From positions 1,013,764-1,077,763 of the forward strand of contig NZ_KK211162.1 of the NCBI RefSeq assembly GCF_000620665.1: a stretch of 64,000 nt of DNA. Direction: 5' to 3'. Below, piece by piece: positions 1 through 16,715 of this stretch. The notes beneath the pieces are model-generated. The model did not search any database, had not been told where the DNA came from, and was given only the letters and a program-made list of their open reading frames with translations. Both the position numbers and the translations under genes were made by a program. Origin of the DNA: Sphingomonas sp. URHD0057. Its GTDB lineage: Bacteria; Pseudomonadota; Alphaproteobacteria; Sphingomonadales; Sphingomonadaceae. The stretch's first letter is position 1. Each line of letters starts with the position of its first letter.

Positions 1-185
1 GCAAGGACTTCGAGTTCACGGTCGGCATGAGGAACGTCTTCGACAAGAAGCCGCCGCGGGTGAGCCTGGTCGGCCCGACGACAGGCGCCGTCGGCCTCCC
101 CGCTACCATCGGCCCGGTCGTCGCGACGTCGCAATACGACTTCCTTGGAAGGCGGATGTTCGTCAGTGTGAGCAGGAAATTCTAG
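1..185 (+). CDS. TonB-dependent receptor, C-terminal end only (5' part outside window)
   Basis: The window opens inside a reading frame (codons from base 3) that ends at a TAG at 183-185. The visible tail has the last strands of an outer-membrane beta-barrel: a GMRNVFDKKPPRV segment (the N-L/V-F-D-x-KPPR signature of TonB-dependent receptors), then SQYDFLGRRMFVSVSRKF ending in Phe, as expected for recognition by the barrel-assembly machinery. It aligns closely with the tail of the complete receptor at 2829-6062 (NLFDTKPPRI, then SQYDWLGRR). It is therefore the receptor of the first of two tandem cassettes and is followed by a strong hairpin and then a sulfotransferase gene. Substrate unknown. 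Confidence 0.9.
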   Translation, partial: KDFEFTVGMRNVFDKKPPRVSLVGPTTGAVGLPATIGPVVATSQYDFLGRRMFVSVSRKF

Positions 186-204
186 GCCTTACGGCTTGGT
201 TTTA

Positions 205-234
205 CGGGGGGCGGCCCTATTCTGCCGCCCCCCG
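205..234 (+). terminator. Hairpin terminator/attenuator after the first receptor gene
   Basis: A perfect 11-bp stem (CGGGGGGCGGC with GCCGCCCCCCG) around an 8-nt loop, followed by TTTCTTG, begins 20 nt after the receptor stop codon. The next gene starts 29 nt after the hairpin on the same strand, so it may either end transcription or reduce read-through into the sulfotransferases. A similar hairpin is at the same relative place in the second cassette. Confidence 0.7.
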
Positions 235-263
235 TTTCTTGTAAGCGAACTCCAACCGTGGCC

Positions 264-1067
264 ATGCAAGCCGTCATCAGGGTGAAGCCGGATACGCTGG
301 ACGCCGACACCGTCCGCTTCGCTCCCGAGCCCTTGCGGCAACCCTTGTTCCTCAACAGCATTCCGAAGAGCGGCAGCCACCTTCTTCGAAACATCCTGCG
401 GATGTTCGTGCCCGTCGAGCAGCAATATCGCGAACAATTCATCCAGTGGCCGAACATCCGGCAACATCTCGACGCCTTCGACTCCGCCCGCAACTACATG
501 AGCTTCGGGCATCTGTTTTTCACCGACGGCCCGGCGATTGAGCTCGCCGACGTGCGCAAGATCCTGCTTTACCGCGACCCCCACGAATGGGTCTTGTCGC
601 GTGCGCGATTCTATCTCTCCGATGAGTTCCAGGGCGAGCTTGAGCATCTCAAGGACGGCCGCATCCACGTCGATGATCTCCTGACGCTGATGATCTTTGG
701 AATTCGCACCGTCGTTCCGTCCCTGAACCACATGTACGAGCTGAATGTCGTCGCCTGGCTCGGGTCGGATGTTTTTGTGGTGCGTTATGAAGACCTTATC
801 GAGCACGTGCAGGCACTCGAAACGAACCAGGCCGAGTCTTACTTTGCCGCACTGTTCGAGGCGTGCGGCATTTCCCCCGTGCCGGCCAATTGGAAAGAGC
901 GCGTCCTGGTCGGAGCAGACCGACGCCAAAGCGGAACGGCGCGCGAGAACCTGACCGGCATCCGGACCAAGCTCCCCGACACCCTTCCCGCCAAGCACCA
1001 GCAAATGATCGAATATGCGGCGCCGGGGTTGCGCGCGATCCTCGGCTATGCCGATCGCGCTCGATGA
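264..1067 (+). CDS. Small sulfotransferase-domain protein, cassette 1
   Basis: Protein of 267 aa. The N-terminal FLNSIPKSGSHLLRN segment (about residues 30-44) is the PAPS 5'-phosphosulfate-binding loop of sulfotransferases. KILLYRDPHEW and VRYEDL segments further on fit the 3'-phosphate-binding strand and a conserved family motif, and a late GTARENL segment sits where cytosolic sulfotransferases have a phosphate-binding loop. A GTG two codons upstream (258) is possible, but the ATG at 264 gives the same start as the paralogue at 6159 (MQxV...DTLD). The stop overlaps the start of the next gene (ATGA), so the two are probably translationally coupled. Expected to use PAPS in the cytoplasm; acceptor unknown. 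Confidence 0.85.
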   Translation: MQAVIRVKPDTLDADTVRFAPEPLRQPLFLNSIPKSGSHLLRNILRMFVPVEQQYREQFIQWPNIRQHLDAFDSARNYMSFGHLFFTDGPAIELADVRKILLYRDPHEWVLSRARFYLSDEFQGELEHLKDGRIHVDDLLTLMIFGIRTVVPSLNHMYELNVVAWLGSDVFVVRYEDLIEHVQALETNQAESYFAALFEACGISPVPANWKERVLVGADRRQSGTARENLTGIRTKLPDTLPAKHQQMIEYAAPGLRAILGYADRAR

Positions 1068-2644
1068 CCGGCATTTCCGCATACCCTCGCCTGCGCCAGG
1101 CGGAGAAGGCGATCGAAGAGGGCCGTCTGGAAATGGCTTCGGCGATCGTGATCCAGCATTTGCGGGAAAATCGGAACGAACCGCGCGGGGTTGCTCTTCT
1201 CGGCTCGATCGCGTTCAAGATGGGCGCGCTGGTTCAAGCCGAGCAGTTCCTTCGGCAAGCGATCGCGGTTGGCGGCAGCTCACTCGAAGTCCAACGCGAG
1301 CTCGCCTCCGTCATGCACCACCAGGAGCGTTTGCCAGAGGCGTTGAGCGCTCTGAGCGTGCTTCAGGACCAAACTCCCGACGTGGGACTCCGCGGTGCAA
1401 AGGCGCTGATCCTCGATAAGCTCGGACGCAACGCCGAAGCGATCCGCGAACATGAAGACCTGGTGGCGAAGCATCCCGACCACCCCCGGGTCTGGCTCGG
1501 ATATGGGAACAGTCTTCGCTGGGCCGGCCGCAACGAGGAAGCCATTGCGGCTTACCGCCGGGCGACCGCGATCGATCCTGAACACGGCGATGTGTGGTGG
1601 GCGCTCGCCAATATCAAAACGAAGGTCCTCACCGACGAAGACATCGAGATCATGAAAAGCGCGTTGAAGCTTGCGATCGACGAACGAAACGTCATTCCGC
1701 TTCATTTCGCGCTCGGCCGAGCCCTTCACGATCGCAAGGAGTATCAGGGCGCTTTCGAGCATTTCGAAACCGGCAACCGACTGCGCGCAGAAACGATCAA
1801 TTACGTTCCCGAAGACCTGAGCGCCGAGGTGGATGAGATCGGCCGGCTATTCGACCGGGAGTTCTTCGAACGCCGTGAACGGCCGGCGCCGCGCGACGAA
1901 CCGACGCCGGTGTTCCTGATCAGCTTGCCCCGCGCCGGGTCGACATTGCTCGAGCAGATGCTCGACCAGCATCCGGACATCGAAGCCGTCGGTGAGCTCC
2001 CTTACGTGCGCGCGCTGGTCCGCAGCGCCCTGGAAATTCACACTCGGCGAAGGCCCACGACCGTCCCGCAAATGGTGCTGGCGATGAGTCCCCAGGAAGC
2101 GCGAGCCTACGGGCAGGATTATATGCACCGCGCTTCGCTGCATTGGACAGGACGTCCGCGCTATTTCGTCGACAAGATGCCCATGAACTGGAGCGAAGTG
2201 CCGTTCATTTGGCGCATTCTCCCCCAGGCACGCTTCATCGAGATCCGCCGCAACGCCATGGACTGCTGCGTCTCGAACTATATGCATTATTTCTCGCGCG
2301 CCCACTCGTCGTCATTCTCGCTGCGGCACATCGGCTGCGCCTACCTCGACATGGTACGCATGATGGATCACCTCAATTCGGTCGCGCCCCGCCTCGTCCA
2401 CTCCATCCGATACGAAGAACTTATCGAGAGCCCGGAACCGATCTTGCGCGGCGCGCTCGATTATCTCGGCCTCGAATGGGATCCGGCGCTGCTGAAGTTC
2501 TACGAATCCGATCGCATCGTCCGGACACCCAGCGTCGAACAGGTCCAGCAGCCGCTCAATCGCAAGGGCATCGGAACGTGGACGCCCTATGCGGAGTGGC
2601 TAGGGCCCTTGCGCGATGCGCTGGGATCCCTCGCCGACGCTTGA
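1064..2644 (+). CDS. TPR-sulfotransferase, cassette 1
   Basis: Protein of 526 aa. The first half consists of tetratricopeptide-like helical repeats (for example NSLRWAGRNEEAIAAYRRA). The second half is a Sulfotransfer_3-type domain: the PAPS loop FLISLPRAGSTLLEQML lies near residue 283 and is followed by HPDIEAVGEL; VDKMPMNW and FIEIRRNAMDCC (about residues 369-402) give the 3'-phosphate-binding part. The chosen ATG overlaps the upstream stop by 4 bp; an in-frame extension back to 863 would overlap the sulfotransferase gene almost completely and is rejected. TPR plus this sulfotransferase type recalls tyrosylprotein sulfotransferases, which act on proteins, so a protein or peptide acceptor is possible; this is inference. 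Confidence 0.85.
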   Translation: MTGISAYPRLRQAEKAIEEGRLEMASAIVIQHLRENRNEPRGVALLGSIAFKMGALVQAEQFLRQAIAVGGSSLEVQRELASVMHHQERLPEALSALSVLQDQTPDVGLRGAKALILDKLGRNAEAIREHEDLVAKHPDHPRVWLGYGNSLRWAGRNEEAIAAYRRATAIDPEHGDVWWALANIKTKVLTDEDIEIMKSALKLAIDERNVIPLHFALGRALHDRKEYQGAFEHFETGNRLRAETINYVPEDLSAEVDEIGRLFDREFFERRERPAPRDEPTPVFLISLPRAGSTLLEQMLDQHPDIEAVGELPYVRALVRSALEIHTRRRPTTVPQMVLAMSPQEARAYGQDYMHRASLHWTGRPRYFVDKMPMNWSEVPFIWRILPQARFIEIRRNAMDCCVSNYMHYFSRAHSSSFSLRHIGCAYLDMVRMMDHLNSVAPRLVHSIRYEELIESPEPILRGALDYLGLEWDPALLKFYESDRIVRTPSVEQVQQPLNRKGIGTWTPYAEWLGPLRDALGSLADA

Positions 2645-2828
2645 TTCACTGCAGAAATAGCCGGGTTGACCGGTGCTTCATGGGATTCAAGGGGTTAGAT
2701 CCTTTATCCAGTCAGTTGACAGTTTCTCTCTGGGCGGCAAATCATTGCGGCGGCATTACGTAACTGTAATGTGGCAACGTCGCGGTCACGACCATCGTGT
2801 CATTGGCCGCAAGAGGGGATGAGAACAG
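2645..2828 (+). promoter_or_regulatory. Upstream region of the second TonB-dependent receptor
   Basis: This 184-bp gap separates the first TPR-sulfotransferase from the second receptor. A TTGACA at 2716-2721 could be a -35 element, but no convincing -10 follows at 17-18 nt. Further down, CATTAC and GTAATG form an inverted repeat around a 6-nt spacer at 2754-2771, a candidate operator. No terminator hairpin is obvious after the TPR-sulfotransferase. The promoter assignment is weak. Confidence 0.3.
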
Positions 2829-5800
2829 ATGGGAAAATCAGAGCGTCGTAACGCTCGTGCACGAGTGAGCCTTTTGGTCGGCGTGTCGGCGACCGCGATC
2901 CTCATCTCGTCGCCGGCATGGGCGCAGACGGCTGATCAGCCCCCGGCCCCGCCGCCCGAGACGACGCTTCCCGCCGAGCAGCAGCTCCCGCCCACGGACA
3001 ATCAGCCGCCACCCTCGGAGGTAAGCAATCCCCGTCCGGCGGCGACGCAGCCCCAGCGCGATCAGCAGATCGTCATCACCGGCAGCCGCATCCGCCGCAC
3101 CGAGGCGACCAGCGCCGCCCCGCTCCAGATCATCGACCCAACGCTGAGCCAACGCCAGGGCCTGAACACGGCCGCGGAGATCATCCAGTCGTCGCCGATC
3201 GCCAGCGGATCGAGCCAAATCACCTCCGCCATCTCGACCAATTTCGTCACCAATGGCGGGCCCGGATCCCAAACCATCGATCTGCGCGGCCTTGGCGCCT
3301 CACGCACGTTGGTCCTGCTCAACGGGCGGCGGGCCGGCCCGGCCGGTACCCGCGGCGGCGTCACCGCATTCGACCTCAACGTCCTGCCGGCCGGCATCAT
3401 CCGTTCGGTGGAGATCCTCAAGGATGGTGCGTCGTCGATTTACGGCTCGGACGCCATCGCCGGCGTGGTCAACATCCTGACCAAGAAGGATACTGACGGC
3501 ATTGAACTGAATATCTCGGGCAACCTTCATCAGCACAAGGGCGGTGAGGAGTTCGAGGGCGGCGCGACCTGGGGCAAGGATTTCGGCCGCGGCCACATCC
3601 TGCTCTCCGCCGACTACTACAAGCAGAACTATTTGAAGCGGAAAGACCGCAAGTTCCTCGGCTGCCCGGAGGACTATATGTTCCGGCCCGACGGCTCGCG
3701 CGCCGACCTGATCGATCCGCGCACCGGAAAGCCGCGCTGCAACGGCGTCGTCTGGGGTCAGGTCTGGACCTATTACGCCTACAACCTTCCGGATTTTGGG
3801 ACGGCGGTCCTGCTTCAGCCGGACTTTGGCGACGGGCTCGCGCAATATGTGCCCCATGTTCCCGGGGCGCATGGATACGGCGAGCTCAACGTACCGTCGG
3901 ACTTCCTGCCCGTCGGCTATATCGCACGACCCGATACGAGCCCTGTCGACGACCTATTCGGGCCAAGTCGGTCTGTCGCCAATGCGCTCGAGAACCTCTA
4001 CAGCCCAATCGAGGCGGGGACGTCGGTCATCCCGAAGACCAAGCGAATCACGGGTTATGCCGACGCCTCGTACGAGATCACCGACAATATCGAGCTCTAC
4101 AGCGAGTTCCTGTTCAATAACCGCAAGACCTATACTCAAAGCCTCGTCCAACTTTACAACTTTGGGTACGCCGCGACTGCGCCGTTCGAAGGCGATCCCT
4201 TCCCTGGCTTCTATCAGCCGGAAGGCGGCTTCGTCCTTGTCAGCCCGACCAACATCACCGACCATTACGACAATAAGATCGACGTCGATTATTACCGCGG
4301 GGTGCTCGGCGCGACCGGCAAGCTGTTCGGCGACTGGGTCTGGGATGCTTACGGCCAGTACAGCCACAACGTCGGCAAATACACCTACGACCAGATCCTC
4401 GCCGACTCGATCGCCATCCAGAGCTACAAGACCGGCAGCTGCGTCGGCGAATTCACGTCGGTGGCGCATAAGGCGTGTATCGACATCAACTGGGTGGACC
4501 CGGCTTTCCTGGCCGGCAACCTGACCCAGGAGCAGATCGACTTCTTGTTCGGCACCGAAACCGGCAAGACGATCTACAACCAGAAATATTTCGAAGCCTC
4601 GACCACCGGCACTTTGTTCCACCTGCCCGCCGGCCCCGTCGGCATTGCCGCTGGTGCCGCCTGGCGAAAGGACTCGATCGACGACCAGCCGGGCAATATC
4701 ACCATGGCGCCCAATCCGGATCAGGATCCCAACGATCCGGACGACGATTTCATCGACAACGGCTACGCCAACCCAATCGCCTCAGGGCACACGTTTGGTC
4801 ACAGCGTGACCAAGGAAGCGTTCGCAGAAATCAACGTCCCGATCCTCAAAAACTTCGTCCTCGCGAAGAGCCTGCAATTCTCGGGCGCAGCGCGAGTTAC
4901 GGATGTGAAGGCGACCCGCGGCGGCGACGGCTTCAGCGCCAGCAGCAAGGGAAATTGGACCTACAAGCTGCAAGGGAATTGGCAGATCGTCGACGCGATC
5001 CGGCTGCGCTCGACTTACGGCACTTCTTACCGGGCCCCCGCCTTGTTCGAGCAGTTCCTGGCCAACCAGGTCTCCGGCGCGCGTCAGGTCAATATCGACC
5101 CATGCGTCAACTGGGCCAATGGCCTCGCCAAGGGCACGATCACGCAGCGCCAGGCCGACAATTGCGCCGCCGACGGCATCTCTCCGACCCACAGCGGCGC
5201 CGGCGTTCAGGCCGCGGTCTTCAATTCGGGTGGCGTCGGCGTGCTCGAGCCGGAAACGTCCCGGGCGTTTACGGCCAGCGTGATTCTGACGCCGCCGCAA
5301 TTCCTCGACACCAGTGTCGCATTCACGGTCGATTATTTCGACATCAAGGTGAAGGGCGAAATTACCCAGCTTGGCGCCAAGAACATCATCTACGGCTGCT
5401 ACGCCTCGCTGGACTTCCCCAACGACCCGTTGTGCTCGCTGTTCGAACGCGGCCAGGTCGGCGACCCGACGAACGTCAAGAACGTCTTCGACAAGTTCAT
5501 CAACGTCAACCGCCAGCACAACCGCGGCCTCGACTTCACGCTTCGCGCGACGCACCGTCTCGGCGGCTTCGGGCGCCTCTCCTTCCTCGGCAACGCCACC
5601 TATCAGCTCAAGGACGACGTTACGCTGTTCGGCGGGACGATCGACAATTTGAACGGCGAGATTGGCGATCCGAAGCTAGTGGCGGACGGCAAGTTCACCC
5701 TCGACCACAAGAACACCTCGTTCTTCTGGGGGATCGAATATGTCGGCAAGGCGTCGAACGCGAAGCAGTTCATTCGCGACAACGGCGGCCTCTGCAACAC

Positions 5801-6062
5801 CAACCCAGACACCCATCTCATCTTCGGCGACTATTGTTACAAGGTGAATGTCGAACAGCGCTTCTATCACAACGCTTCGGTCACTCAGCGCTTCGCCGGC
5901 GACCGTTACGAGCTCACCGTGGGCGTTGCGAACCTGTTCGACACCAAGCCGCCGCGGATCTCGACTCCGGCGGTGGTCAACATCGGCCAGGTACCGGCGG
6001 TGTCGCAATACGACTGGCTCGGCCGGCGCTTGTTCTTCTCGGCCAAAGCCCGGTTCAAGTAA
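2829..6062 (+). CDS. TonB-dependent receptor, cassette 2
   Basis: Protein of 1077 aa. Residues 1 to about 32 are a signal peptide ending in SPAWA before QTA. A Pro/Gln-rich linker follows (to about residue 80), then IVITGSRIRR, the combined TonB-box/plug start usual in sphingomonad receptors. The plug carries LRGLGASRTLVLLNGRR and GSDAIAGVVNILTKK. The rest is barrel with several Tyr- and Asn-rich loops, a late NLFDTKPPR motif and the C-terminal SQYDWLGRR segment ending in Phe-Lys. Such receptors import large or scarce substrates across the outer membrane using TonB energy; the substrate cannot be read from sequence. The linkage to sulfotransferases is the distinctive context. A Pro-rich stretch between signal and plug is longer than in many homologues. 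Confidence 0.95.
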   Translation: MGKSERRNARARVSLLVGVSATAILISSPAWAQTADQPPAPPPETTLPAEQQLPPTDNQPPPSEVSNPRPAATQPQRDQQIVITGSRIRRTEATSAAPLQIIDPTLSQRQGLNTAAEIIQSSPIASGSSQITSAISTNFVTNGGPGSQTIDLRGLGASRTLVLLNGRRAGPAGTRGGVTAFDLNVLPAGIIRSVEILKDGASSIYGSDAIAGVVNILTKKDTDGIELNISGNLHQHKGGEEFEGGATWGKDFGRGHILLSADYYKQNYLKRKDRKFLGCPEDYMFRPDGSRADLIDPRTGKPRCNGVVWGQVWTYYAYNLPDFGTAVLLQPDFGDGLAQYVPHVPGAHGYGELNVPSDFLPVGYIARPDTSPVDDLFGPSRSVANALENLYSPIEAGTSVIPKTKRITGYADASYEITDNIELYSEFLFNNRKTYTQSLVQLYNFGYAATAPFEGDPFPGFYQPEGGFVLVSPTNITDHYDNKIDVDYYRGVLGATGKLFGDWVWDAYGQYSHNVGKYTYDQILADSIAIQSYKTGSCVGEFTSVAHKACIDINWVDPAFLAGNLTQEQIDFLFGTETGKTIYNQKYFEASTTGTLFHLPAGPVGIAAGAAWRKDSIDDQPGNITMAPNPDQDPNDPDDDFIDNGYANPIASGHTFGHSVTKEAFAEINVPILKNFVLAKSLQFSGAARVTDVKATRGGDGFSASSKGNWTYKLQGNWQIVDAIRLRSTYGTSYRAPALFEQFLANQVSGARQVNIDPCVNWANGLAKGTITQRQADNCAADGISPTHSGAGVQAAVFNSGGVGVLEPETSRAFTASVILTPPQFLDTSVAFTVDYFDIKVKGEITQLGAKNIIYGCYASLDFPNDPLCSLFERGQVGDPTNVKNVFDKFINVNRQHNRGLDFTLRATHRLGGFGRLSFLGNATYQLKDDVTLFGGTIDNLNGEIGDPKLVADGKFTLDHKNTSFFWGIEYVGKASNAKQFIRDNGGLCNTNPDTHLIFGDYCYKVNVEQRFYHNASVTQRFAGDRYELTVGVANLFDTKPPRISTPAVVNIGQVPAVSQYDWLGRRLFFSAKARFK

Positions 6063-6083
6063 GACCGATTCAGCTTTTTAAGG

Positions 6084-6114
6084 GGCGGCGGAGCATGCTT
6101 CGCCGCCCTTTTTA
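6084..6114 (+). terminator. Hairpin terminator/attenuator after the second receptor gene
   Basis: GGGCGGCG pairs with CGCCGCCC across an AGCATGCT-containing loop, followed directly by five T residues. It starts 21 nt after the receptor stop and 45 nt before the sulfotransferase start, matching the layout of the first cassette. Confidence 0.8.
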
Positions 6115-6158
6115 TTCACCGGTAGCGAGACGCCGTTCCGGCCGTTAGGATTCAGCCG

Positions 6159-6947
6159 ATGCAGCGCGTCAATCTGAAGGCCGACACACTCGACCAGGAG
6201 AACCGGCGCTTTTCGCAGGCCGTCCTGCGCGAGCCCGTATTCCTCAACAGCGTGCCCAAGTCGGGCTCGCACCTGCTGCGCAACATCGTCCGCATGTTCG
6301 TGCCGGTCAGCCAGCAATACCAGCGACAGTTCGTCCAGTTCGCCAACCTCGAAGAGCATCGTGACGCATTCAACGCGGAATTGCCGATGGTCAGCTGGGG
6401 TCATCTGCCGTTTTCGGACGAATCGGCGATGGATCTCACCGGCGTCCGCAAGATATTGCTGGTCCGCGACCCCTGCAGCTGGGTGATTGCGCGCGCGCGC
6501 TTCTTCGTCTCGGACGAGTTCTCGGGCAACCTCGACCTGCTGAAGGAAGGCAGGCTCTCGGCCGAAGAGCTGATGAACCTGATGATCTTCGGCATCTACC
6601 AGCGCGCGCCGAGCCTCAATGAGATCTACACCCACAATGCGATCGCCTGGCTCGGCACCGGCGTGCACCTGGTCCGCTACGAAGACTTGGTTGGCCATCT
6701 CAAGAGGATCGCGGCGCCGGAGGCTGAGGCTTATTTCGGGGCTCTGCTCGAAGCTTGCGGCGTGGCGCTTCCGGGCGACTGGCGAGAGCGCGTGCAAGTC
6801 GGCAGCGACCGCGCGCAAAGCGGCACGGCGCGCGAGAATCTGTCGACCGCGACCAACCTCGAGTTCCCCGCGGAGCTTCCGGCGACCCAGCGGGCCCTGG
6901 TCGAGGTCGCGGCACCGGGTTTCCGATCCCTCCTCGGCTATGACTGA
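6159..6947 (+). CDS. Small sulfotransferase-domain protein, cassette 2
   Basis: Protein of 262 aa, clearly paralogous over its full length to the protein at 264-1067. The PAPS loop FLNSVPKSGSHLLRN lies at about residues 28-42; SxxxGHLPFSDE, KILLVRDPCSWV, LVRYEDLVGHL and QSGTARENL are all kept in the same order. The ATG lies about 8 nt after an AGGA. Its stop overlaps the start of the following TPR-sulfotransferase by 8 bp. Presumed cytoplasmic PAPS-dependent sulfotransferase; acceptor unknown. Conservation of the core motifs in both copies argues that both are active rather than decaying duplicates. Confidence 0.85.
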   Translation: MQRVNLKADTLDQENRRFSQAVLREPVFLNSVPKSGSHLLRNIVRMFVPVSQQYQRQFVQFANLEEHRDAFNAELPMVSWGHLPFSDESAMDLTGVRKILLVRDPCSWVIARARFFVSDEFSGNLDLLKEGRLSAEELMNLMIFGIYQRAPSLNEIYTHNAIAWLGTGVHLVRYEDLVGHLKRIAAPEAEAYFGALLEACGVALPGDWRERVQVGSDRAQSGTARENLSTATNLEFPAELPATQRALVEVAAPGFRSLLGYD

Positions 6948-8720
6948 CAAGGTCGAGGTCCAGGCCGGAACGCTCGAGGAGGGTCTGGCCAACGGCTATG
7001 CGCTGCTCGATCCGCATCCCGAGGCCGCGCTGATGCAGGCGCAGACCTTGCTCAAGCTCGGGTCCGACGCGCGGGTCTTTCGGCTCGCCGCGAGTGCCCA
7101 CCGCCGGCTCGACCAGGCGCGCGAAGCCGAAGCGGCGGAGCTTGCCGCGATCGAGCATAGCCTGACCGTCCCCGAGCTGAAGGCCGCCGCCGGGGCCGAG
7201 CACGAGGGCCGCAGCGCCGAAGCCGCCGCCGCGACAGCTGCCTGGCTCGAGCGGCATCCCGACGATCTGCTGGCGATGACGATTTCGGCCGAAGCCGCAA
7301 TCAGCATGAAGCTGCTCGGCGAAGGCGAGCAGCTGCTCCGCCGCGTGCTCGAGCGAGCCCCGGGTTTCCTCCGCGCCTCGATGTTCCTCGCGCGCGGCCT
7401 GATGCTCCAGTGCCGGATTGGCGAAGCGATCGAGGTCATGACGCGCGCGGTCGCCAGGGCTCCCGACAATCTCTCCGCCAACAAGTTCCTCGCCCAGCTC
7501 CAGGCCGAGGCGCGCGATTACGAAGGCGCGGCAGCGACCTACGAGCGCCTCCTCGGACGCCACGACAAGGAGGCCGAGCTGTGGGTCAGCTATGGCGACA
7601 TGCTTCGTTTCCTCGGCCGCCGCACCGACAGCGAACTCGCCTATCGCCGCGCCATTTTCTGCGACGGCGGGTACGGCGCCGGCTGGTGGGGCCTCGCCAG
7701 CCTGGACGCCAACGCGCTGGCCGACAAAGACGTGGCGCGAATGGAGGCCGCGCTCGTCGAGCGGCGCGACAAGCCGGAGGACGTCGGCGCCCTCCATTTC
7801 TCCCTCGGCGAAGCGTTCGACAAGCGCGGCCGCTATGAGGAGGCATTCGAGGAGTTCGCGGCCGGCAACGCGCTGCGAAGGAAGGCGCAGCCATACGACC
7901 CGGCGAGCCTGACCGATGAGATCAGCCGCTCGATCGAATTCTTCACCCGCCACCGGCTGGAGGCCCAGACGAGCGCCGCGGGCGACGCCGGCCCGATCTT
8001 CATCGTCGGCATGCCCCGATCGGGATCGACGCTGATCGAGCGCATCCTCGGCGGGCATCCTGAGATCGAGGCAACCGGCGAGTTGCCGATCATCCCGCGC
8101 ATCGTCGAGGTCCTGAGCGCGCGCGGCGGCGGGGTCGGCGGCTTTCGCGATGTGGTGGCGAAGATCGACCATGCCGGCCTGCGACGCCTCGGCGGAACCT
8201 ATCTCGAGCGCTCGCCCGAATACCGCAAGAGCGACAAGCCCCGGTTCACCGACAAGCTCCATATGAACTGGCGCCACATCGGCTTTCTCCGCATGATCCT
8301 GCCCGGCGCGAAGATGATCGACGTCCGCCGCGACGCGCTCGATTGCTGCTGGTCCAACTTCAAGCTGCTGTTCACCCGCGGCCACCCCGCCGCTAGCGAC
8401 CTCGACCATATCGGCCGTTTCTACCGCGATTATGTGCGCATGATGGACCATATGGACGCGGTCGCGCCCGGCGCCGTTCTTCGCGTCGGCTACGAAGACG
8501 TGATCGACGATGCCGAGCGTGAGGCGCGCCGCATCTTCTCATTCCTCGGCGTGGAGTTCAACGCCCAGTCGCTGGATTTCCACACGTCGGCCGAGCCCGT
8601 CGCGACCGCCAGCAGCGAACAGGTGCGCCGCCCTCTCAACCGCTCGGGCATTGGTACGTGGCGGCCTTACGCGCAGTGGCTGGCGCCCTTGCGCGAAGCT
8701 CTGGGGCCGCTCGCCGACGC

Positions 8721-8724
<4 letters not shown>
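6940..8724 (+). CDS. TPR-sulfotransferase, cassette 2
   Basis: Protein of 594 aa. About 340 residues of TPR-like Ala/Leu/Glu-rich helices precede a sulfotransferase domain with PAPS loop [17 protein letters not shown] (about residues 352-368), [17 protein letters not shown] and [15 protein letters not shown]. The C-terminal half matches the cassette 1 partner, including the endings [22 protein letters not shown] and PLADA. The N-terminal repeat region is longer than in cassette 1 (594 versus 526 aa) and more diverged. The start ATG overlaps the upstream gene by 8 bp. The stop (TAG 8722-8724) overlaps the convergent ahcY stop. A reading frame back to 6619 exists but is only a shadow of the upstream gene. 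Confidence 0.85.
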
Positions 8725-10148
<1,424 letters not shown>

Positions 10149-13134: not shown

Positions 13135-16100
13135 TCAGGCGAAGATGAAGTCGCCGGTGGCGACGTGGCTGACACCGATCAGCGTGATGGTGAAATCGGC
13201 GCGCCCGTTGTGATCAGCGTCGACTGAGATCACCGTCCCGCTCGTACCAACGGCGATCTTCAAGTCCGCGCTGGTGATGCCGGCGATGAGAGAAAGGTCG
13301 ATCGTGTCCGTTCCCGAGACGAAGTCCGTCACCTTGTCGCTGCCGCCACCCCTTTCGAACATGAACGTGTCGCCGCCAAGACCGCCGGTCAGCGTATCTG
13401 CCCCGAGGCCCCCGCGGAGGAGATCGTTGCCAGCTCCCCCAATCAGCTTGTCGCTTCCGGCCATGCCATAGAGAAAATTGTCGCCATCGTTGCCGATGAG
13501 GACGTTGGCGAGCGAGTTCCCGATGAGCTCGACCGAGAACGTGCCTTCGAGGACCCCATTCTCGACATTGGCGCCGAGTGTGTAACCGACCGTCGAATGG
13601 ACAGTATCTATACCCTGTCCCGCCAGCTCCATGACCTTGTCGCCGGCATCGTCGACATAATAAATGTCGTTGCCTGTCCCGCCCTTCATAACATCGCCGC
13701 CCGTGCCCCCGTTGAGCGTGTCGTTGCCGCCGAGACCGTTCAGCGTGTCGTTACCCGCGCCTCCGGTCAGCGTATCGGCGCCGCTGGTACCATTTAAGGT
13801 AATTGGCGGCGGCGCGGTGAACTGCAGGCCGGCCTGAACCGTCGCCAAATCGACATTCTGAAAGGTGATCTGGTCCGAGGACGAAAGCCGGACGACCACG
13901 TCAGATCCGATCTGAGTGATCGAGACAGCCGAGGCATAGCCATCGATCTGGACCACCTCTCCACCGGCCAGATCGGTGATGATGTCTTGCCCGTCGCCCT
14001 TGGCGAACAGGAACGTGTCGGTGCCGCCGCCGCCGGTCAACGTGTCGTTGCCCCAGCCTCCGTGAAGCGTGTCGTTCCCGCCGGCACCACTCAGGAAGTT
14101 ACTGCGATAGTCTCCGCCCAGCGTGTCGCCAAATGCCGAGCCGGTGGCATTTTCCACGTTACTAAAAGAATCGCCGCCCGCGCCATTCCCCCATTCGAAG
14201 TCAACGGACACGCCGCTCGTCGCATTGCGGTAATCGACCGTGTCGATACCCTCGCCGCCGGAGAAGGAGTCGATGCCGGCACCGCTGACAAGCGTGTCGT
14301 CGCCGTCACCACCCTCAATGCCATGGAAGCCGTCGCCAGCAATGAAAACGTCATCGCCGCCACCACCATATATGTTCCCGGTGTCTCCGTTCAGAATGAA
14401 CACATCGCTTCCGCCTTCACCGTCGACGCTGACGTCGGTCGACACTGTGAGTGTGTCGGCGAAGTCCGTGCCGCCAACGAACTGAAGATTTTCAACGTTC
14501 TGGATGGTTGCGCCGCCGATGACGGTTCCGGCGAGAAAGGATGCGGTGTCGAGAGTAACGCCGGTCGGCGCCGTAATCAGGCTCAAAAACAGGGTGTCCA
14601 CGCCGGTTCCGCCGTCGACATCGTCGCCGTAACCCGCGTTCAGGAAATCATCTCCGGCGCCACCGACTAGCGTGTCGTGCGCGCCGTCGGGGTCATTGAC
14701 CTCCGCATCCGAAAGCCCCTCCGCGCTGTATGAGTAGAGGGAATCGTTGCCCGCGCCCCCGTCGATGACGTCCGCACCGAGCCGGCCTTCGATCCGGTCA
14801 TCGCCGCTGCCGCCGTTCAAATGGTCGTTGTTCGAACTGCCATAGATCAATTGCCCGAACGGCAGTGCGGCAAAATACATGCCGGCCTGTACGGTCCCAA
14901 CGTCGGTATTCGACAGAGTGATCTGGTCGGTGCCCGAAAACACGACCACGACATCGCTTCCGACCTGCGTCATCGATTGAGCCTGCGTATAGTCTGCTAC
15001 CTCGATGAGATCGCCCGCCGTAAAATCGGTGATCACATCTTTCCCGTCGCCCGCACTGAAACGGAATGTATCGTCACCTCCGCCGCCTGAGAGAGTATCG
15101 TCGCCGGTTCCACCCCAAAAACCGTCGCGGCCCGTGCTGCCGATGATTGTATCGTTGCCGGCGTCGCCGCTGATGAAATTCGAATAAAAGGTGGGGGCGA
15201 CGTGGATGGTGTCGTCTCCGGCACCTCCGTGAAGGGTTCCGGCCCCGAAGATGATGTCGTCGCCATCGCCGCCGTTCGCGATCGCGCTCAGGTTGGCAGG
15301 GACATAAAGCGTGTCGTTGCCGTCGCCGCCGTCGACCTCCTGCAGATATTGGCTGCCGCGGCCATCGACGATGTCATTGCCATCGCCACCGTCGAGTAAT
15401 GAAGTAACATAGCCGGCGATCAGCGTGTCATCGCCGCCCATTCCCAAGAGGACTGCGCCGCCTCCATGTCCATTGCCGTCGGCGTCCTTTAGGTAATCGT
15501 TGTAATTGCTGCCTTGGATCCAGTTGATATTTTCGAAGCCCGTGATCGTGCCGCCGCCAACGACCAGCGTCCCGAGGCTGAAATCGGCAGTGACGCCACT
15601 GCCCGCGCCTTGAAAGCTGATGAATAGCTGGTCGCCGTAATTTCCCTGTTCGCCGCCATCGACATTGTCGCCGTATCCCGCGAAGATCGTGTCATCTCCG
15701 CCGCCGCCGATCAGGGTGTCGGCCTCACTTCCGGTATCGAGAGCGGGCGCGTGATACGGGATGTAATAATAGGGACTATTGTAAGCGGGTGAGACATCGG
15801 CGCTGTAGATCGTGTCCGCGCCTTCGCCGCCGTTGATCGTATCGCCGCCCGAGCCACCGGCAATGGCGTCGTTCCCGGCCAGACCATCAATCGCGTCGGA
15901 CCCGCCCAAACCATTGATCGTGTCGTCTCCACTGGTCCCGGTCAGCTGGTCCGGTCCCGCCGTCCCGTTGATCACCGGCGGCGTGGCGTCAGCAAAATAG
16001 AGCGCCGCCTGGACGCTTGCGAGGGTAGCATTCTGGAACGTGATCTGGTCGCCGGCAGACAGGACGAGGACCACGCTCGTACCGGCCTGGGTGATCGACT

Positions 16101-16422
16101 GGGCCGTGGCGTAGCCATGGATCTCGACCGTCTCGCCGGCCGCCAAATCGGCTATCGTGTCCTTTCCGTCGCCTGCCTGAAACTGAAAGAGGTCGAGTCC
16201 CTGGCCACCCCTCATGCCATCATCGCCGGCGCCGCCACTGATCACATCTGATCCGTCGCCACCGTCGATCCTGTCGTTTCCCCCCTGACCGTGGATCGTG
16301 TCCGATCCTCCGAGGCCGCTAATGATGTCGACGCCGGCGGTGCCGTTCAACACGTCATCGTTGGCAGTCCCGTTGATAGTCGTACTGCCACCCGTTGGTC
16401 CCGGCATAATCCCTCCAGCCAT
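13135..16422 (-). CDS. RTX-type calcium-binding repeat protein (type I secretion substrate)
   Basis: Protein of about 1095 aa (ATG at 16422; a GTG one codon upstream is possible). It is filled with hemolysin-type nonapeptides of the GGxGxDxxx type (GGNDTLNGGTGGD, GGAGDDTI and so on), which bind Ca2+ and fold outside the cell. Three longer modules of about 65 residues alternate with them, near residues 78, 453 and 802, each reading F-x-AGDGKD-x-I-x-D followed by a TQ-G-S-V-V strand and a QITFxNxxxxxVQA segment. No signal peptide is present, and the last residues (SHVATGDFIFA) are hydrophobic, both as expected for type I secretion. No secretion genes are nearby. No catalytic domain is visible, so an adhesin, surface-layer or matrix role is more likely than an enzyme. 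Confidence 0.85.
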   Translation of the reverse strand: MAGGIMPGPTGGSTTINGTANDDVLNGTAGVDIISGLGGSDTIHGQGGNDRIDGGDGSDVISGGAGDDGMRGGQGLDLFQFQAGDGKDTIADLAAGETVEIHGYATAQSITQAGTSVVLVLSAGDQITFQNATLASVQAALYFADATPPVINGTAGPDQLTGTSGDDTINGLGGSDAIDGLAGNDAIAGGSGGDTINGGEGADTIYSADVSPAYNSPYYYIPYHAPALDTGSEADTLIGGGGDDTIFAGYGDNVDGGEQGNYGDQLFISFQGAGSGVTADFSLGTLVVGGGTITGFENINWIQGSNYNDYLKDADGNGHGGGAVLLGMGGDDTLIAGYVTSLLDGGDGNDIVDGRGSQYLQEVDGGDGNDTLYVPANLSAIANGGDGDDIIFGAGTLHGGAGDDTIHVAPTFYSNFISGDAGNDTIIGSTGRDGFWGGTGDDTLSGGGGDDTFRFSAGDGKDVITDFTAGDLIEVADYTQAQSMTQVGSDVVVVFSGTDQITLSNTDVGTVQAGMYFAALPFGQLIYGSSNNDHLNGGSGDDRIEGRLGADVIDGGAGNDSLYSYSAEGLSDAEVNDPDGAHDTLVGGAGDDFLNAGYGDDVDGGTGVDTLFLSLITAPTGVTLDTASFLAGTVIGGATIQNVENLQFVGGTDFADTLTVSTDVSVDGEGGSDVFILNGDTGNIYGGGGDDVFIAGDGFHGIEGGDGDDTLVSGAGIDSFSGGEGIDTVDYRNATSGVSVDFEWGNGAGGDSFSNVENATGSAFGDTLGGDYRSNFLSGAGGNDTLHGGWGNDTLTGGGGTDTFLFAKGDGQDIITDLAGGEVVQIDGYASAVSITQIGSDVVVRLSSSDQITFQNVDLATVQAGLQFTAPPPITLNGTSGADTLTGGAGNDTLNGLGGNDTLNGGTGGDVMKGGTGNDIYYVDDAGDKVMELAGQGIDTVHSTVGYTLGANVENGVLEGTFSVELIGNSLANVLIGNDGDNFLYGMAGSDKLIGGAGNDLLRGGLGADTLTGGLGGDTFMFERGGGSDKVTDFVSGTDTIDLSLIAGITSADLKIAVGTSGTVISVDADHNGRADFTITLIGVSHVATGDFIFA

Positions 16423-16715
16423 CACTAAAACTCATCTGCCCGAGCAGACGTTCGGCTGAAGAACCCCGTGGCCGGTTCCGGGTCGGCTTCCCGGCTGATC
16501 CGGCATTCGGGAAAACCCCCGAAGCCCCTGCGCGACGGACGGTGCCCGTTGCGCAAATGAAACATTACCGGGCGGAAACCGCCCGTGCAACATGCGACCA
16601 ATCGAATGTCCGCAATGGGTCGAAAGGAGCCATCAGTGCAGCGGCACTTAGCGGCCTGACCCACCCGCGCTCCGTATTTTATGCTGTCCTTCGAGACGAC
16701 CAGCCGAGCGGCGGC
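16423..16715. other. Intergenic region upstream of the RTX gene
   Basis: About 290 bp containing the RTX promoter region and a copy of the dispersed repeat (16605-16690, listed separately). No gene is apparent. Confidence 0.4.
16605..16690. repeat. Dispersed intergenic repeat, long form (copy 1)
   Basis: It begins AATGTCCGCAATGGGTCGAA, continues through GTGCAGCGGCACTTAGCG (16636-16653) and CTGACC, and ends with ATTTTATGCTGTCCT (16676-16690). All parts recur in the same order in the copy beyond the next gene at 17476-17623. Confidence 0.65.

Follow-up and report, generated by a model that had tools for sequence, protein, structure and literature searches.

Tyrosine sulfation in bacteria is known to us from a single system, RaxST/RaxX of Xanthomonas. 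As described in PMC9372746 and PMC6637879, RaxST is a TPST-like enzyme (TPST, tyrosylprotein sulfotransferase) that lacks a membrane anchor and acts in the cytoplasm on a protein exported later. According to PMC9372746, animal TPST substrates with moderate or higher affinity mostly carry an aspartate immediately before the tyrosine. In Caulobacter, the tetratricopeptide repeat (TPR) part of FlmG is described as binding flagellin, which is secreted only after its modification in the cytoplasm (PMC7591256). Sulfotransferase genes also occur near genes for outer-membrane transport: methanobactin operons are reported to combine the sulfotransferase MbnS (PF00685) with a TonB-dependent transporter, MbnT (PMC3621798), and one arylsulfate sulfotransferase gene of Sutterella has a TonB-type outer-membrane transport gene nearby (PMC10932419); sulfotransferases are found in carbohydrate clusters as well (PMC4110880). 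In this work, we describe a cassette encoding a TonB-dependent receptor (TBDR), a small sulfotransferase-like protein (SST), and a TPR-containing sulfotransferase (TPR-ST), which occurs twice in succession at the beginning of a 64,000-nucleotide stretch of Sphingomonas sp. URHD0057 (contig NZ_KK211162.1, positions 1,013,764 to 1,077,763; hereafter the window), together with the related receptor/TPR-ST pairs of other genomes.

We propose, with a probability of roughly 0.4, that the TPR-STs, and probably the SSTs too, sulfate their partner receptors in the cytoplasm before export. Modification of a receptor by the enzyme encoded next to it is the best reading of the data because of the RaxST and FlmG precedents, the conserved linkage between the two genes, and a tyrosine-rich loop in one group of the linked receptors.

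The linkage was assessed in 80 named loci, the best of 426 relatives found by scanning species genomes with a TPR-ST alignment. A TBDR lies within two genes of the TPR-ST in 72 of the 80, including 12 loci with the gene order of the window (type A, TBDR > SST > TPR-ST) and 55 in which the TPR-ST is directly upstream of a receptor from another subfamily (type B, represented in the source genome by the TPR-ST4 > TBDR4 pair at C3:381642); the rest have other arrangements. The hosts belong to Sphingomonas, Novosphingobium, Sphingopyxis, Sphingorhabdus, Erythrobacter, Caulobacter, Phenylobacterium, Asticcacaulis, Lysobacter, and Dokdonella. A TBDR is the immediate neighbor of 61 of the 82 TPR-ST open reading frames (ORFs) in these loci, compared with 115 of 763 other ORFs; excluding the 55 type-B partner receptors lowers the latter figure to 68 of 762. 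In a survey panel of 396 genomes drawn from one order and covering 84 genera, a type-B receptor (E<=1e-140) was found in 186 genomes, a TPR-ST by the type-B profile (E<=1e-120, a threshold that also admits some other TPR-STs) in 224, and both in 185; the sole genome with the receptor and no TPR-ST match is 67% complete. Two receptor and three TPR-ST candidates were scored per genome, so that the gene counts are lower bounds. When the 116 type-B receptor rows of at least 690 bits were matched against the TPR-ST rows from the top down to G034:C1:1277032, a TPR-ST was located within 3 kb of 104 receptors, upstream on the same strand in 88 cases, upstream on the opposite strand in 13, and downstream on the opposite strand in 3. 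TPR-ST matches were also obtained in five plasmid records.

The type-B receptors share a loop that reads D-Y-[S/T]-D-Y-xxx-Y-D nearly invariantly across 52 aligned rows, which represent 51 of the 55 type-B locus receptors and the seed. The first Asp and all three Tyr are present in 52 of 52 rows, Ser or Thr in 49, the fourth position is Asp, Glu, or Tyr (48, 2, and 2 rows), and the last is Asp in 51 and Glu in one. In a selection of 35 of the 55 receptors, D362, Y363, Y366, and Y370 never vary; the motif is less strict in more distant members (DYTGY or DYVGY, for instance). The AlphaFold model of the type-B receptor of locus L097 (pLDDT 80.7, pTM 0.82) has the standard TonB-receptor fold and matches solved receptors such as FyuA (E=1.1e-42). 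In this model, residues 363-397, which connect strands 344-362 and 398-416, make up a loop that contains short helices and lies on the long-loop side. Other strand ends are joined by two-residue turns (342-343 and 484-485); the motif loop should thus be extracellular. In type-B receptors, the tyrosines of this motif would most likely be the sulfation target. The adjacent receptors encoded with a TPR-ST on plasmids of N. pentaromativorans US6-1 and Novosphingobium sp. PP1Y carry the loop motif too; in US6-1 it reads DYSYYSVAYD in receptor JI59_RS19735, whose TPR-ST is JI59_RS19740.

To provide a control, 40 regions around receptor matches of falling similarity were examined in 25 genomes; they contain 45 receptor ORFs, of which 44 were counted, with the 497-residue fragment L248_2 left out and L233_19, located beside a 313-aa weak sulfotransferase match, counted as unlinked. 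The loops of the 11 TPR-ST-linked receptors hold 4, 4, 7, 8, 8, 8, 9, 10, 10, 11, and 14 tyrosines, versus 0-6 (median 1) in the 33 unlinked ones; when the loop is delimited more narrowly, linked and unlinked receptors average 6.45 (n=11) and 0.42 (n=33) tyrosines. Among the 40-residue segments scanned, the motif loop shows the largest difference in tyrosine between linked and unlinked receptors, and the tyrosine content outside the loop is alike (0.038 vs 0.034). Trp is not enriched in the linked loops, Phe is lower, and Asp plus Glu is slightly higher; the unlinked relatives often keep an Asp in the loop and lack the Tyr residues after it. A short form of the motif was detected in 52 of the 55 adjacent TBDR4-like receptors of the named loci and in none of the 19 other adjacent receptors.

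The enzyme family is consistent with such a substrate. TPR-ST1 (1064..2644, plus strand, 526 aa) matches PF13469 (1.4e-41, residues 282-474) and several TPR models. Among the best 60 of 212 matches of the TPR-ST profile to PDB structures, an engineered TPR protein is the closest to the TPR part, with O-GlcNAc transferase (OGT) behind it; the first sulfotransferases listed are protein-tyrosine sulfotransferases (E 6.5e-17 to 1.6e-12), and a polyketide-synthase sulfotransferase comes next (2e-11). The catalytic Sulfotransfer_3 domain of TPR-ST1 alone (residues 282-474, 1907..2485, plus strand) gave nine matches, with CurM first (4.7e-9, over two short stretches), followed by chains of TPST1 and TPST2, a polyketide-synthase sulfotransferase, and another tyrosine sulfotransferase. 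R290, E311, and K371 are invariant in all 25 type-A TPR-STs examined and correspond to the 5'-phosphosulfate-binding Arg, the catalytic Glu, and the conserved Lys (DK/NK site) of TPST-like enzymes. The catalytic region aligns with TPST1, HMMER placing a one-residue gap near the Glu. In TPST, R78, E99, and K158 have these roles, and the Arg-to-Glu spacing of the TPR-STs, 21 residues, equals that of R78 and E99 in TPST2. Ser404 of TPR-ST1 aligns with the 3'-phosphate-binding Ser of TPST1; its equivalent is present in eight of eight type-B TPR-STs (S401), replaced by Ala in TPR-ST3, and not invariant in the 25 type-A enzymes. Sequence comparison supports the TPR-STs as TPST-like, candidate protein sulfotransferases. 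An initial annotation made from the window alone had called them TPST-like, which the profile ranking supports, TPST1 standing directly behind CurM when the catalytic domain is used alone.

From these observations, we infer the substrate, place, timing, and effect of the modification as follows. The cassette would be an operon of a receptor and the enzymes that modify it. The TPR-ST, and probably the SST too, would act in the cytoplasm with 3'-phosphoadenosine 5'-phosphosulfate (PAPS) on the receptor encoded next to it, prior to its export and folding in the outer membrane. The TPR half may hold the unfolded receptor chain in the way the FlmG TPR half holds flagellin, and the TPST-like half may add sulfate to hydroxyl groups of residues destined for extracellular loops, in type-B receptors most likely the tyrosines of the D-Y-[S/T]-D-Y-xxx-Y-D loop. 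Sulfation would alter charge and ligand recognition at the receptor mouth.

In the window, the first cassette begins with the C-terminal end of TBDR1 (3..185, plus strand, frame 3), comprising the last 60 codons and the stop, with a translation that ends in YDFLGRRMFVSVSRKF; most of the gene lies upstream of the window (full-gene match, G000:C3:1010598-1013945). SST1 follows on the plus strand, with its start at GTG 258 or, likelier, ATG 264, and its end at 1067 (PF00685, E=0.00046), overlapping TPR-ST1 by 4 nt. The second cassette, also on the plus strand, consists of TBDR2 (2829..6062, 1077 aa), SST2 (6159..6947, 262 aa; PF00685 weak, E=0.0089), and TPR-ST2 (6940..8724, 594 aa; PF13469 4.7e-41, residues 352-541), the two sulfotransferases overlapping by 8 nt; the catalytic Sulfotransfer_3 domain of TPR-ST2 (residues 352-541) occupies 7993..8562 on the plus strand. 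TBDR2 has both the plug (PF07715, 1.9e-15) and the barrel (PF00593, 2e-24) domains of a TonB-dependent receptor. The PF00685 scores of SST1 and SST2 (20.1 and 15.9 bits) are below the cut-off of 22 for a SULT-type assignment; no solved relatives of SST were found at E<=1, and no NCBIfam model scored above its cut-off for any of the five window proteins. Across 33 SSTs, K37, H85, R106, and S121 are conserved with at most one exception each. The copies are 51% (TBDR), 55% (SST), and 36-38% (TPR-ST) identical. The receptor > SST > TPR-ST order with overlapping sulfotransferases, which the initial annotation had read twice, holds, TBDR1 being mostly outside the window. The matching C-terminal signature that it had seen is indeed common to both TPR-STs, but is not specific to this pair: its closing W, Y or F, L, and P/D-L residues recur in alignments of four and of eight TPR-STs, and it looks family-wide. 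An adenosylhomocysteinase gene, sahH (8721-10148, minus strand), stands tail-to-tail with TPR-ST2 with a 4-nt overlap. Further along, 13135-16425 (minus strand) encodes a protein of ~1096 aa with many GGxGxDxL-type repeats, RTX-like by eye.

In the survey panel, SST is present in 33 of the 396 genomes and 11 of the 84 genera, and the source genome is the only one with two. Sphingopyxis microcysteis Z10-6 (L060) is an example of a type-A strain. A full receptor is directly upstream of SST on the same strand in 31 of 32 other-genome regions, and a TPR-ST is downstream in 23; eight of the 32 regions have receptor and SST without a TPR-ST, L152 at a contig edge among them. The exception, L181 from the same genus, has its SST on the far side of sahH. 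Positions 1-5281 of L181 hold a TPR-2-oxoglutarate (2OG)-Fe(II) oxygenase (PF13759) and a 2OG-Fe(II) oxygenase (PF13640) between the receptor end and sahH. In the 23 three-gene loci, no more than 118 nt separate the receptor from SST, and the sulfotransferases abut or overlap. With two candidates scored per genome, we counted a minimum of 61 type-A receptors (E<=1e-120), distributed over 56 of the 396 genomes; by position 33 are SST-linked, and for the other 28 the retrieved stretch contains a TPR-ST in six cases and none in 22. A plasmid search with SST2 gave no match at E<=1e-20. The co-occurrence of receptor and sulfotransferase outside the source genome, on which the cassette hypothesis of the initial annotation depended, is thus conserved both here and in the type-B pairs (185 of 186 receptor-bearing genomes). 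In the comparison of gene trees that it had proposed, two of the three families agree. The receptor and TPR-ST trees contain the same strongly supported split, in which the first copy groups with 16 others and the second, a long branch in the TPR-ST tree, with seven; the SST tree recovers the first group with weaker support (87/67) and places the second copy with two others instead (80/79). Because of this split, the two cassettes are, on the tree evidence, old lineages side by side, which other genera hold separately. The term "tandem duplicated" therefore applies in a deep sense only, a recent tandem duplication of the cassette being rejected on the basis of the trees.

The source genome (2.79 Mb, 11 contigs) encodes seven TPR-STs (E<=1e-5), two SSTs (E<=0.001), and 20 TBDR plug domains. 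Of these TPR-STs, five have a TBDR near them, four adjacent and one ~2.4 kb away, a proximity that is not due to chance given 20 plug domains genome-wide. An opposite-strand pair, TPR-ST3 > TBDR3, is located just upstream of the window beyond TBDR1, and TPR-ST5 (C4:407926) lies ~2.4 kb from TBDR5 beside an Asp/Asn beta-hydroxylase and a protein with no Pfam domain. The TPR-ST5 neighborhood (L011 5578-9369; G000:C4 ~405577-409368) comprises TPR-ST5, a TPR-Asp/Asn beta-hydroxylase (PF05118), and this 359-aa protein near TBDR5; its HSGFCCSTL stretch resembles a sulfotransferase P-loop by eye. No receptor was found within the retrieved neighborhood of the remaining two TPR-STs. At L010 4842-10040 (G000:C7), a TPR-ST with many TPRs is beside cysD-like and cysN-like GTP-binding ORFs, assigned by inspection rather than by Pfam.

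Other protein-modifying enzymes, some with TPRs, were noted case by case as receptor neighbors in several places. On the Asticcacaulis sp. DW145 plasmid pASDW145_1 (L323 516-8384), the order is receptor > sulfotransferase family 2 > Asp/Asn beta-hydroxylase > TPR-ST > sulfotransferase, and at L295, L298, and L300 TBDR3-like receptors are near a TPR-2OG oxygenase (OXY5-like) and a TPR-ST7-like gene, which suggests a further receptor/modifier combination. More tentatively than the proposal above, the TBDRs of alphaproteobacteria and some xanthomonads may be tyrosine-sulfated on an extracellular loop by TPR-guided cytoplasmic TPST-like enzymes, within a wider set of receptor-linked modifiers, often fused to TPRs, that would include sulfotransferases, Asp/Asn beta-hydroxylases, and 2OG-Fe(II) oxygenases.

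Several observations weigh against sulfation of the receptors. The linked loops are also longer (28-60 residues, versus an unlinked mean of 31) and richer in Gly. The linked state requires about three changes on the receptor tree, of which well-supported branches force one, so that the association with tyrosine rests on few independent events, and the linked/unlinked tyrosine statistics ignore kinship. The main clade contains seven of the 11 linked control receptors; L220 is on its own, and the remaining three (L250, L251, and L252) make up another group, which has fewer tyrosines and lacks the motif. The adjacent receptors of the named loci that lack even its short form are those of types A and C, and the short pattern occurs in two of 25 non-adjacent receptors. 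The TPR-ST-linked plasmid receptors of N. capsulatum and Asticcacaulis also have no motif. Conversely, DY[ST]xY is kept in all 12 type-B receptors with no TPR-ST within 3 kb; that of G159 is at a contig end, and the other 11, from eight genomes, have TPR-STs elsewhere (in L306, L314, and L315 within the retrieved stretch, though outside the 3-kb cross-match). The motif thus can persist with the enzyme in trans and is not strictly tied to adjacency. Protein sulfation, as the initial annotation had suggested, has good indirect support for the receptor in type-B pairs, but no acceptor was found in type-A receptors: an acidic-Tyr motif was looked for in these receptors, including those of the window, and not found, and setting type-A receptors that have a TPR-ST against those that lack one did not reveal a clear acceptor site. 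Tyrosine differs in two loops between linked and unlinked type-A receptors, and we do not count this difference for sulfation because Trp differs as well. The AlphaFold model of TBDR2 has a mean pLDDT of 43.6, and we claim no loop topology for the window receptors. Loops rich in Tyr and Asp can also bind ligands or metals unmodified.

The last point leads to the main competitor: the product of the sulfotransferases would be a sulfated ligand, either a peptide or another small molecule such as a metallophore or a signal, which the cell exports and the linked receptor then imports, with the Tyr/Asp loop serving as its binding site. We hold this explanation at about one in three because of the MbnS/MbnT precedent, a table of genes that co-occur with halotolerance in Pontixanthobacter, and two lasso-type domains in the source genome. 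The Pontixanthobacter table (PMC10040529) places lasso-peptide B2, two sulfotransferases, and an aspartyl beta-hydroxylase under neighboring cluster numbers, and these genes may form one locus. The two PF13471 domains (lasso-peptide protease, or B2, type) above the cut-off are at C3:624026-624304 (L327) and C6:183528-183797 (L328), both far from the cassette, so that sulfated peptides may be made elsewhere, a further point against receptor sulfation. The type-A loops moreover diverge from their unlinked counterparts in Trp as well as Tyr, as a changed binding pocket would. However, no further gene fits inside the cassette, even if a tiny peptide could; a TPST-like catalytic domain joined to an OGT-like TPR part suggests a protein substrate; and several receptor subfamilies are paired with one enzyme family.

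Two further explanations loosen the tie between enzyme and receptor. It is unlikely that the sulfotransferases modify some other surface component (exopolysaccharide, lipopolysaccharide, lipid, carotenoid, or another secreted protein) and share only regulation with the receptor. The two source-genome TPR-STs without a nearby receptor, one of them beside the cysD-like gene, indicate that the family has other roles, yet the near-absolute co-occurrence with one receptor clade exceeds what shared regulation usually gives, as does an adjacency that survives changes in gene order. Inherited synteny without a functional link is disfavored as highly improbable. Common descent does account for part of the conservation, since many type-A loci are beside sahH, which is in the retrieved stretch of 17 of the 47 type-A-related loci searched (15 + 32); but sahH is not in that of the other 30, the type-B linkage persists across varied arrangements (88/13/3), and receptor/TPR-ST pairs are also borne on plasmids.

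If the receptors are sulfated as proposed, bacterial nutrient receptors would be tuned post-translationally in the way animal chemokine receptors are, and would be bacterial transporters decorated with sulfated tyrosine. Covalent modification of outer-membrane transporters could then set what they bind. With both type-B partners in 185 of 396 genomes and a candidate acceptor motif at hand, many unassigned sulfotransferases and receptors would become a testable system. Within the searches that we made on a receptor/sulfotransferase link or receptor sulfation, the accounts retrieved report no sulfated TonB-dependent receptor.

The RaxST enzyme modifies a 60-residue peptide exported by RaxAB, whereas the cassette enzyme is fused to TPRs and tied to outer-membrane receptors; the neighbors of the cassette are receptors, sulfotransferases, and sahH, no search having been aimed at RaxX, RaxA, or RaxB. 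To our knowledge, neither RaxST nor human TPST1 and TPST2 have a TPR domain. The human enzymes are among the nearest solved relatives of the TPR-ST catalytic domain and share its Arg, Glu, and Lys, but are membrane-anchored Golgi enzymes, as described in PMC9372746. Methanobactin operons likewise place a sulfotransferase with a TonB-dependent transporter; MbnS, in contrast, presumably acts on a threonine in a small peptide that MbnA/B/C produce (PMC3621798), and the cassette has no room for genes of a methanobactin precursor, MbnB, and MbnC, no search having been aimed at MbnB or MbnC. FlmG and O-GlcNAc transferase resemble the TPR-STs in joining an N-terminal TPR part to a catalytic domain, and differ in transferring a sugar rather than sulfate.

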